This document shows positions 10,385 through 61,865 of a DNA stretch of 64,000 nt, piece by piece. The notes beneath the pieces are model-generated. The model had not been told where the DNA came from, did no database searches, and worked only from the letters and a program-made list of their open reading frames with translations. Origin of the DNA: Chryseobacterium limigenitum (lineage in GTDB: Bacteria; Bacteroidota; Bacteroidia; Flavobacteriales; Weeksellaceae). Both the position numbers and the translations under genes were made by a program. Within the stretch, counting starts at the first letter, position 1; each line of letters begins with the position of its first letter. The DNA lies in contig NZ_FPKW01000008.1 of NCBI RefSeq assembly GCF_900114875.1, forward strand, positions 62,001 through 126,000. The letters run 5' to 3'.

Positions 10385-10387
10385 ATA

Positions 10388-10422
10388 GGTGAATGGTAAA
10401 TTTTGCTTCGCAAGTGAATTGT
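10388..10422. repeat. degenerate heptad array after DUF3078 copy 2
   Basis: Seven-base units GGTGAAT, GGTAAAT, TTTGCTT, CGCAAGT, GAATTGT starting 3 bases past the stop codon. Only the first two units are clearly related, so this is the weakest of the four heptad-periodic stretches in the window. Confidence 0.35.
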
Positions 10423-10457
10423 CCATGTAAAAGCAATAAAATCAGCCACTTTAAATA

Positions 10458-12823: not shown

Positions 12824-14272
12824 CTATCCTACAGAACCCTCTAATGAAATTTCCAACAGTTTCTGCGCTTCAATAGCAAATTCCATTGGTAATTTATTTA
12901 AAACTTCTTTACTGAATCCGTTGACGATCAAAGCAATTGCTCTTTCAGTATCAATACCTCTTTGGTTACAGTAGAAAATCTGATCTTCACCGATTTTTGA
13001 AGTCGTTGCCTCGTGCTCTAACTGAGCCGTAGGATCTTTAATTTCAATATAAGGGAAGGTATGTGCACCACATTCGTTACCCATTAGCAAAGAGTCACAT
13101 TGAGAGAAATTTCTTGCTCCTTTTGCAGAAGGCATTACTTTTACCAAACCTCTGTATGAATTCTGAGATTTTCCTGCAGAGATTCCTTTAGAAATGATCG
13201 TTGATCTGGTATTTTTACCAATGTGGATCATTTTTGTTCCTGTATCTGCATATTGGTGATTGTTAGTCACAGCAATAGAGTAGAACTCACCAATTGAGTT
13301 ATCACCTTTCAAGATACAAGACGGATATTTCCAAGTTACAGCAGAACCGGTTTCAACCTGAGTCCAAGAGATTTTTGCATTTCTTTCGCAAAGTCCTCTT
13401 TTCGTTACAAAATTGAAAACACCTCCTTTTCCTTCTTCATTTCCCGGATACCAGTTTTGAACGGTTGAATATTTAATTTCAGCACCATCCATTGCAATAA
13501 GTTCTACAACAGCGGCGTGAAGCTGGTTTTCGTCTCTTGATGGTGCTGTACAGCCTTCAAGGTAAGAAACATAACTTCCTTCATCAGCGATAACGATCGT
13601 TCTTTCAAACTGACCTGTTCCTGCCTGATTGATACGGAAATAAGTCGAAAGTTCCATAGGACATCTTACGCCTTTTGGAATATAGCAGAAACTTCCGTCA
13701 GAAAATACTGCAGAATTTAATGCTGCATAAAAATTATCTCCTCTAGGAACTACTTTACCAAGATATTTCTTAACAAGATCCGGGTGATTTTTGATCGCCT
13801 CAGAAATTGAACAGAAAATAATTCCTTTTTCCATTAACGTGTCCTGAAAGGTCGTTTTAACAGAAACTGAATCTATTACGATATCTACAGCAACTCCTGA
13901 AAGTCTTTTTTGTTCTTCAATATTGATTCCTAATTTGGCAAAAGTTGCCAATAATTCCGGATCTACTTCATCTAAGCTTTCTAGTTCTGGCTTAGATTTA
14001 GGGGCTGCATAATATTTAATCGCCTGAAAATCAGGTTTTGTATATTTAATGTTTGCCCAATCAGGTTCTGTCATTTTCAGCCAGATTCTGAAAGATTCCA
14101 AACGCCATTCAGTCATCCATTCCGGCTCTTCTTTTTTAGCAGAGATGGCACGAACGATATCTTCATTTAAACCAATCGGGAAATCTTCATAATCGATCTT
14201 TGTTTCCCAACCGAATTCATATTTCTTATTTTCTAAATCGACTCTTAAGTCGTCTTCAGTGTATTTACTCAT
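12824..14272 (-). CDS. sufB: Fe-S cluster assembly scaffold SufB
   Basis: 482 residues, the normal SufB length. It forms the scaffold on which a cluster is built from SufS-derived sulfur. Conserved segments seen: [39 protein letters not shown] (with the conserved Cys), and the C-terminal [22 protein letters not shown] ... [23 protein letters not shown]. It has sufC downstream (149-base spacer) and the SufA-like gene upstream (82-base spacer that carries a heptad-periodic array). Confidence 0.97.
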
Positions 14273-14285
14273 TTTAATAGATTTT

Positions 14286-14357
14286 AGATGTTAAAATGCA
14301 GATGTTAAAATTTCGCAATATGCTAACTTCTAACCTCTAGTTTCTAACTTCTAATTA
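14286..14357. repeat. heptad-periodic array in the sufA-like/sufB spacer
   Basis: On the plus strand 14323-14357 reads as five contiguous 7-base units CTAACTT, CTAACCT, CTAGTTT, CTAACTT, CTAATTA; the last contains the stop codon of the SufA-like gene. Next to it AGATGTTAAAAT occurs twice with a 14-base period (14286-14297, 14300-14311). It fills most of the spacer inside the suf operon. Confidence 0.6.
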
Positions 14358-14684
14358 TAAAGAAAAACTCTCTCCACAACCACACGTTCTGGATGCATTA
14401 GGATTGTTGAAAACAAACCCCTTTCCGTTTAATCCTCCTGAATACTCAAGAATTGTTCCTGCTAAATAAAGGATAGCTTTTTTTTCAACAACAATTTTCA
14501 CATCATTGTCTTCAAAAATTTGATCTGTGTCTGCTTTTTGATTGTCAAATCCCAAAACATACTCTAAACCAGAACATCCTCCACTTTTCACCCCTACTCT
14601 TATATAATCTTCAGCAGGGTTGAAGCCATCTTCCGTCATAAGTTGGATAGCTTTTGCCTTTGCTTGGTCTGATACTTTTATCAT
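14355..14684 (-). CDS. sufA: A-type iron-sulfur carrier (HesB/IscA/SufA family)
   Basis: 109-residue A-type Fe-S carrier. The three ligand cysteines are present: C37 (GGCSGLEY) and the C-terminal pair C101 and C103 (RTCGCGESFSL). It accepts clusters from the SufBCD scaffold and delivers them to apoproteins. As first gene of the suf cluster it follows a TTTG / TAnnTTTG promoter (14713-14744). The SufA name is chosen from context; sequence alone would also fit IscA or ErpA. Confidence 0.9.
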   Translation of the reverse strand: MIKVSDQAKAKAIQLMTEDGFNPAEDYIRVGVKSGGCSGLEYVLGFDNQKADTDQIFEDNDVKIVVEKKAILYLAGTILEYSGGLNGKGFVFNNPNASRTCGCGESFSL

Positions 14685-21264: not shown

Positions 21265-21397
21265 AAATTCTTAAAAATTGAACTGCAAATTTAATTGTTT
21301 CTGAATGATTTACAAAATACTTTGAGGGTATTATTAAACTAATTATTAATTCTTTACTCCAAATGTATTTTTATAATGCTTTTTACTATAATCAAAG

Positions 21398-21493
21398 ATG
21401 CTTCGACTCCGCTCAGCATGACATCTCTAATACGAACTGCTTTATTGTAACGGTCATTTTTTAGCGATGTCATGCTGAGCGGAGTCGAAGCAT
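21398..21493. repeat. perfect 28-bp inverted repeat (REP-like element)
   Basis: Arms at 21398-21425 and 21466-21493 are exact reverse complements over 28 bases (core CTTCGACTCCGCTCAGCATG), separated by 40 bases. The element fills the spacer between apt and the TPR/ribH unit. It is markedly more GC-rich than its surroundings. The core resembles intergenic palindromes that I recall recurring across Bacteroidota genomes. It could end transcription in both directions or be a mobile REP unit. Confidence 0.85.
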
Positions 21494-21507
21494 TTTTGTA
21501 TCATTAA

Positions 21508-61124: not shown

Positions 61125-61127
61125 GCG

Positions 61128-61155
61128 GGAAGTTTGAAGTTGGGTGCCGGAAGTT
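61128..61155. repeat. heptad-periodic array after rodA
   Basis: Units GGAAGTT, TGAAGTT, GGGTGCC, GGAAGTT, starting 3 bases after the rodA stop codon. Further on, ATAATCCG / AAATCCG (61193-61211) is a short imperfect direct repeat. Confidence 0.5.
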
Positions 61156-61245
61156 TACAAATATTCCGTTAATTTTTAAGTTTAAAATCTACATAATCCG
61201 TGAAATCCGCGGAACATTAAATCATTAATAAAACCCACACGCTTT

Positions 61246-61827: not shown

Positions 61828-61865
61828 TTTTAGAAGTTAGATACTAGAAAATAGAAGTTAGTATT
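61824..61865. repeat. heptad-periodic array after the pentapeptide-repeat gene
   Basis: Six contiguous 7-base units CTAGTTT, TAGAAGT, TAGATAC, TAGAAAA, TAGAAGT, TAGTATT; the first unit contains the TAG stop codon. The unit TAGAAGT is the reverse complement, in shifted register, of the CTAACTT units at 14323-14357. Confidence 0.6.

Follow-up and report, generated by a model that had tools for sequence, protein, structure and literature searches.

Why is the gap between two genes of a suf operon filled with degenerate seven-base units, and what kind of element do these units make up? The gap in question lies in a 64,000-nucleotide stretch of the Chryseobacterium limigenitum genome (referred to below as the window), where an 82-nt intercistronic spacer (14273-14354, minus strand) separates an upstream cistron coding for a SufA/IscA-like Fe-S carrier (14355-14684, minus strand; PF01521, E 2.4e-16; TIGR00049, E 1.8e-31) from the downstream cistron sufB (12824-14272, minus strand; TIGR01980, E 3.4e-190), whose start codon abuts the spacer. 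A first-pass annotation had described five contiguous heptads ending exactly in the stop codon of the SufA-like gene, with a 14-base-periodic repeat beside them, and had ascribed these and similar stretches to a recurrent process that generates 7-mers at gene ends.

The sufA-sufB spacer consists of two facing heptad arms

The array, CTAACTT CTAACCT CTAGTTT CTAACTT CTAATTA, occupies 14323-14357; read on the minus strand, its final three bases give the stop codon of the SufA-like gene. This part of the description is borne out both by TRF, which reported 14323-14354 with period 7 and a score of 43, and by shuffling: the best lag-7 score in the 82-bp spacer was matched by 0/5000 dinucleotide shuffles, as compared with 3837/5000 for lag 6 and 2082/5000 for lag 8. 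The 14-base periodicity of AGATGTTAAAAT (14286-14311) is also real, being matched at lag 14 by 1/5000 shuffles, but it does not represent a separate kind of repeat, as this segment is a portion of a second arm, TAGATTT TAGATGT TAAAATG CAGATGT TAAAATT on the plus strand (14278-14312), which faces the first.

The spacer is thereby made up of two inverted heptad arms facing one another across a 10-nt loop region (TCGCAATATG on the plus strand, 14313-14322), in which the five heptads at 14323-14357 (minus strand) provide the 5' arm of a suf-mRNA hairpin and 14278-14312 (minus strand) its 3' arm. Folded in the suf sense, the spacer RNA reaches -20.0 kcal/mol, with a mean of -9.2 (sd 2.4) for shuffled sequences and 0/500 of them as low. 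Complementary ends that form a stem are also a feature of 23S rRNA intervening sequences (IVS), whose associated protein, S23p, is a pentameric four-helix bundle (PF05635). The window spacer sits between sufA and sufB, not inside a 23S rRNA gene, and no S23p profile match was found in the 82 bp between its flanking genes. No Rfam family reached its gathering score anywhere in the window.

Two candidate functions were rejected by inspection. An intrinsic terminator does not fit the mid-operon position, nor the absence of a U-run after the hairpin, which is followed by AATCTATTAAA before sufB begins. An all-frame stop cassette was suggested by TTAGANN/CTAANNT, which gives TAG or TAA in every frame; GGAAGTT and ACCAAAC units lack such stops, which therefore cannot be the general reason for the units.

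Degenerate heptad arrays are frequent between tandem genes

Similar heptads had been pointed out at three other sites in the window, and these fared unequally against 2000 shuffles. The array just after the pentapeptide-repeat gene (61828-61861, plus strand) reads TTAGAAG TTAGATA CTAGAAA ATAGAAG TTAG, the reverse complement of the suf unit; it stood up (20/2000), with a second arm that is partial at most. A one-armed array after rodA, GGGAAGT TTGAAGT TGGGTGC CGGAAGT TTA (61125-61162, plus strand), proved weak (43/2000), its unit resembling that of a solo pair elsewhere in this genome (G000) at C10 260202-260296. The segment that follows the second DUF3078 gene, GTGAATN / TTTGCTTCGCAAGTGAATT (10385-10430, plus strand), had no significant lag 7 (657/2000) and is a member of a dispersed family.

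Lags were scored genome-wide on a sample of 864 kb of the 4.70-Mb genome (18%), in which simple ORF calls defined 491 gaps of 30-400 bp. Lag 7 was the most frequent period (46/491 gaps at threshold), with 26 gaps at lag 8 and 6-19 at each other lag from 4 to 13; under a stricter threshold the counts were 20, 13 and 0-5. Units vary by site (TTAGANN, TTGATAA, TTAGGNN, TTGGAAG, ACCAAAC and octads such as AATGTAGC), and the claim of a common period with site-specific unit sequences holds for these recurrent arrays. The exact triple unit CTAANNTCTAANNTCTAA was found 18 + 22 = 40 times in this genome against 0 + 1 for a reversed-pattern control, and 1667 times against 396 in 60 genus genomes, 43 of which exceeded their own control.

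Array-bearing gaps lay between tandem genes in 57/70 cases and between divergent genes in 6/70, compared with 344/491 and 70/491 for all gaps. Where a tandem gap combined a lag-7/8 array with a fold of z < -2 (28 gaps), the array began at most 9 nt from the upstream stop in 14 and ended at most 12 nt from the downstream start in 17. The reported anchoring at stop codons is right in so far as the arrays hug gene ends, but the next start codon is equally near. A stop-codon process as the generator did not survive the analysis, since the suf array has a facing arm with which it pairs, arrays fill the stop-to-start gap and, at the suf junction of other species, repeat-built arms surround an S23p gene.

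Chance in a DNA of A+T-rich composition might be invoked for the two weak sites among the four first listed (43 and 657 of 2000 shuffles). Given the 0/5000 shuffles at the main site, the genome-wide excess and the S23p flanks described below, the probability of this explanation is close to negligible, and for the sufA-sufB spacer itself it is refuted.

A classical MITE or REP-type repeat, moved by a transposase such as RAYT and unrelated to S23p, would be expected to leave dispersed copies. A dispersed relative of at least 35 bp was present for 111/491 gaps, several of which belong to other repeat families, and for some units, copies of ~70-110 bp that are about 70-90% identical make up dispersed families. 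Against such an origin, the TTAGANN solos have a common unit, not one common sequence, an unsystematic look identified no target-site duplication or transposase-matching ends, and one dispersed family takes in an arm of an S23p gene (L218), so that we consider a transposase-moved repeat very unlikely. Beside L218, AATGTAGC-type octad hairpins and other small repeats are clustered in neighbouring gaps (G000 C17:374500-383000), and copies of these repeats are dispersed in close relatives at ~70-90% identity.

S23p genes occupy the same junction in relatives

The sufA-sufB junction region was matched in all 118 genus genomes searched, and the spacer was read in 70 of them, this genome included. 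These 70 form a non-random set, comprising 50 (4 with split matches) and 20 picked for split matches, with a few further split ones left out. Spacers were short (65-86 bp) in 46/70 and long (191-493 bp) in 24/70.

The short spacers fold consistently, with energies below the shuffle mean in 46/46 and z < -2 in 44/46 (mean z -4.3). Their folds contain 61 helices of 5 bp against 28.7 in mononucleotide shuffles and 51 2x2 loops against 8.6; in this genus, pairing tends to involve a constant pentamer (TTAGA/TCTAA or TCAGA/TCTGA) and to leave the two variable bases in small loops. As a point against the element reading given below, covariation was modest, two-sided changes being seen in 3/21 pairs in each of two alignments.

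Scanning all 70 spacers with our own S23p profile revealed an S23p gene between repeat-built arms in 18/70 genomes; 6/24 long spacers gave no match, which counts against the association. Since 61 of the loci later scanned had gone into building this profile, the matches support identity, not independence. A representative from one genome (G024) matched PF05635 (E 1.5e-29) and TIGR02436 (E 7.2e-30), together with the PDB entries 2rld and 2gsc. By eye, the 18 genes fall into three types (A, 10; B, 5; C, 3), several of them broken, which differ by ~39% (A-B) and 49% (A-C) in nucleotides, and each type, from intact to broken copies, has arm units of its own.

The spacer states are interleaved on a tree built from the flanking gene ends, implying at least 16 changes, with at least 9 for the short form forced by well-supported branches. 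Distances between type A S23p genes track those of their flanks (rho 0.77, pairs of 10 genomes), which suggests a long vertical residence of this type, with losses or replacements. The idea that the short form is simply a current full allele minus its S23p gene was not supported: it is not merely type A without the gene because period and arm units differ, full arms having a period of 8 (lag-8 identity 0.50, lag-7 0.38) and short spacers one of 7 (lag-7 0.52). Unrelated arms can, moreover, occur at this site in sister species. Both the period difference and the unrelated arms speak against a simple relationship between the two forms.

Alternatively, the short spacer would be a domesticated intercistronic RNA hairpin unrelated to S23p that stabilises the mRNA, lets sufA and sufB be expressed at different levels or insulates their translation, with S23p elements merely inserting in or near it. 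The short form does have its own period and units, and a stable fold has been kept in 44/46 short spacers despite sequence drift. This explanation leaves aside the matching arms at S23p genes of many unrelated sites (25 site clusters, see below) and the separate arm units seen by eye for each suf-site S23p type, and we rate it as unlikely. On the evidence of its fold, of the relatives and of the S23p flanks described below, we consider it likely, though far from certain, that the window spacer is a solo form, lacking S23p, of an intercistronic element with the architecture of the 23S rRNA IVS.

Inverted heptad arms tend to flank S23p genes in this genome and in other phyla

PF05635 genes number 0-18 per genus genome (present in 59/60) and were found in 116/148 genomes of a phylum sample. 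This genome has six, one with an internal stop. Inverted arms were significant at five of them, being matched by 0 or 1 of 1000 shuffles; four of these five have lag 7 and the other lag 8. L217 (C45:110718-111017) is a counterexample, its flanks showing neither significant inverted arms (202/1000 shuffles) nor a lag-7 or lag-8 signal. On both sides it has direct copies of a dispersed repeat, GTGAATN/TTTGCTTCGCAAG, of the family to which the DUF3078-site segment belongs.

Across the window's phylum (93 loci), lag-7 identity upstream and downstream of S23p was 0.356 and 0.381, compared with 0.271 at 400-700 nt away. These loci form 25 site clusters, and taking one locus per cluster gave 0.37 and 0.39 against 0.263. 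For 30 loci in 14 genomes of cyanobacteria and other phyla the values were 0.457 and 0.469 against 0.285, the 20 genomes sampled from other phyla being heptad-rich by selection and non-random, with 6 lacking a PF05635 match. The lag spectrum of S23p flanks showed harmonics at 14 and 21. The 400-700 nt control was used in place of one based on neighbouring genes; because such genes border the very gap under test, they contaminated the control in an earlier test of 61 intact-ORF loci (of 64; lag-7 identity 0.42 and 0.41).

The two flanks are also complementary to each other. The median duplex energy of true arm pairs was -35.4 (n=87) against -24.8 for swapped arms (n=513) at the phylum loci, and -44.4 (n=30) against -29.0 (n=235) in other phyla. 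Similarly, an arm alignment score of at least 24 was reached by 29/61 true pairs, as compared with 4.1% of 898 swapped pairs and 5/99 neighbour genes. The excess of inverted heptads at S23p flanks is one that holds on average, with about half of the 61 loci staying at or under this threshold, which weighs against a strict rule. The arms at L360 and L369 look near-perfectly complementary.

The genes themselves lie between co-oriented neighbours, both being in the S23p orientation at 45/51 loci with callable neighbours. Purifying selection acts on them, with median dN/dS values of 0.06-0.13 across five sets that represent four sites. Recent jumps between sites were not seen, as no cross-site pair among the 93 S23p loci exceeded 73% nucleotide identity. 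Nor was there support for unit sequence being set by S23p type across sites (rho 0.05, with 65/500 permutations as high).

A few loci deserve description in their own right. By eye, L216 (G000 C17:317951-318268) is a heptad-armed S23p element located between what seem to be the two halves of metH (methionine synthase), so that such elements may separate or split genes. Also by eye, S23p recurs at one junction before a nadD-like start (L214, L222, L224, L228, L230, L233 and L236); in Flavobacterium columnare the gene order is guanylate kinase, four helix bundle protein and nicotinic acid mononucleotide adenylyltransferase (PMC5524665). Arms at L255, L251, L267 and L272 look to have a period of 8, which was computed for L218 and for the full suf alleles, indicating that the period is not strictly fixed.

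Relatives' S23p loci also map to three S23p-less sites in the sampled DNA of this genome, the bounds of which were set after the sequences had been seen. Heptad hairpins lacking S23p are present at two of these: C10 260202-260296 has clear heptads (lag 7, 0/2000 shuffles; fold, 0/300), and C17 302028-302111 is moderate (20/2000; 10/300). At the third, C17 392764-392810, lag 7 was not significant (206/2000; fold, 6/300), a point against. With the window spacer included, heptads occur at three of four S23p-less sites, a small number. No clean empty site was found, the apparent gap in the one region compared holding another arm, and no target-site duplication was established for these elements.

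Other observations at solo arrays tell against a link with S23p. In the 10 relatives' loci examined for the pentapeptide-repeat gene, no S23p gene was found after it, and in other genomes none of 80 loci with long exact CTAANNT arrays had S23p within 400 bp. Across 60 genus genomes, CTAANNT and S23p counts correlate weakly (rho 0.37, p 0.003, uncorrected for relatedness).

Relation to known heptamer repeats and intervening sequences

Cyanobacterial STRR heptanucleotides are 7-nt tandem repeats in intergenic DNA, for which we know of no arm pairing or gene link. The window spacer shares with SSR, LSSR and STRR arrays the presence of tandem 7-nt units in intergenic DNA, but not their near-perfect head-to-tail iteration in one direction, its units being degenerate and its second arm facing the first. 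If the arrays were nonetheless ordinary heptanucleotide SSRs, they would reflect polymerase slippage in tolerant intergenic DNA, with no element involved; Mrazek et al. have put forward such an origin for long SSRs (cited in PMC4679880 and PMC4692102). The commonness of lag 7 in the genome sample, the variable length of the short suf spacer (65-86 bp) and the existence of perfect arrays in other families would all be compatible with slippage, as would the TAACTGA arrays, which were one-directional and away from S23p in the loci read. By itself, however, slippage does not produce a facing complementary arm, does not concentrate arrays around a single gene family across several phyla and does not place several S23p lineages at one junction. 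It is disfavoured by the paired arms, and we think it an improbable account of the spacer.

TAACTGA direct repeats are intergenic heptamers of Beggiatoaceae, Cyanobacteria and some Bacteroidetes, and in Elizabethkingia and other Bacteroidetes other heptamer direct repeats occupy the same regions (PMC4679880). They differ from the arrays described here in having one fixed unit, mostly in one direction and, in Beggiatoaceae, mostly before start codons (PMC4679880). In our analysis TAACTGA arrays faced one another in 0/30 loci and were near S23p in 0/30 (several loci overlap); triple arrays numbered 171, 590 and 569 in three cyanobacterial genomes (G298, G299 and G309), against 0 for the reversed pattern. 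They seem to be another class.

GGGAATC in Xanthomonas and GGGGA(T/C)T in Nostoc are likewise intergenic 7-nt units, found mostly between aligned genes and near one neighbour, with 70 and 75 inverted GGGAATC pairs in two Xanthomonas genomes and few in Nostoc (PMC4692102). That study concerns G-quadruplexes, and its main text does not contain the terms 'S23', '23S', 'helix bundle' or 'intervening'. We found GGGAATC units flanking an S23p gene in Moorena too (L386).

In the 23S rRNA IVS of Leptospira and Coxiella, an S23p gene is enclosed by stem-forming inverted repeats; in that of C. burnetii, tandem heptamers come just before the S23p start, with an RNase III cut at the first repeat, and excision by RNase III is known for rRNA IVS (PMC4990558). 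By contrast, the elements described here lie between protein genes and not in rRNA, with no S23p in the window copy; heptads or octads make up the two arms, and units differ per site. S23p is under purifying selection here, whereas in C. burnetii it has been called expendable (PMC4990558). S23p of these elements belongs to the family, PF05635, to which Avd of diversity-generating retroelements is homologous (PMC10053308).

Several parts of the picture are thus already known: heptamers beside S23p in one instance (PMC4990558), inverted pairs in Xanthomonas (PMC4692102) and heptamer-rich regions in Bacteroidetes (PMC4679880). The single C. burnetii 23S IVS case is the closest precedent for a heptamer-S23p link in the sources covered (PMC4990558). 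A full-text search, outside which most subscription journals fall, returned no statement that we recognised as linking S23p genes in general with inverted heptad arms.

A possible S23p-associated element embedded in operons

If the window spacer is the solo form of an IVS-like element, the full form would have two facing arms of degenerate 7-nt (sometimes 8-nt) units that bracket an S23p gene. The element would be co-transcribed with its host operon and its arms would pair in the mRNA, by analogy with the 23S IVS (PMC4990558). RNase III or another RNase may then clip the stem, as in the 23S IVS, and clipping of this kind would leave the flanking cistrons separated and little harmed. Since the protein does not predict which unit is found from site to site, S23p could bind the arms by shape and period and not by the sequence of their units. 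As for the origin of solos, we would guess that they arise by S23p loss, spread as non-autonomous copies, or both, with tandem slippage and arm-to-arm copying perhaps keeping the units alike.

A broader proposal, which we put forward tentatively, is that S23p and its paired heptad arms constitute a cross-phylum, operon-embedded selfish (or domesticated) element that is marked by period and symmetry, not by sequence. Part of the heptamer repeats of Bacteroidota, Xanthomonas and Nostoc might then represent such arms, whether or not they enclose the gene, and S23p, as an Avd-like pentamer, might make, copy or guard the 7-nt arms. Such a link would tie bacterial heptad repeats, long noticed and unexplained, to one widespread gene family and, if true, would bear on why 7-mers dominate bacterial intergenic repeats and on the role of the common S23p or 'four helix bundle' genes outside rRNA.

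For annotation, spacers of this kind carry a warning, as they can be structured elements and not random tandem repeats. A further structured repeat of the window, at 21265-21507, is a dispersed palindrome of ~110-130 bp (ATGCTTCGACTCCGCTCAGCATGACA ... reverse complement) that has a REP-like look and seems unrelated to the heptads; at least 11 other gaps in the genome sample hold relatives of it, all in one cluster of 18.
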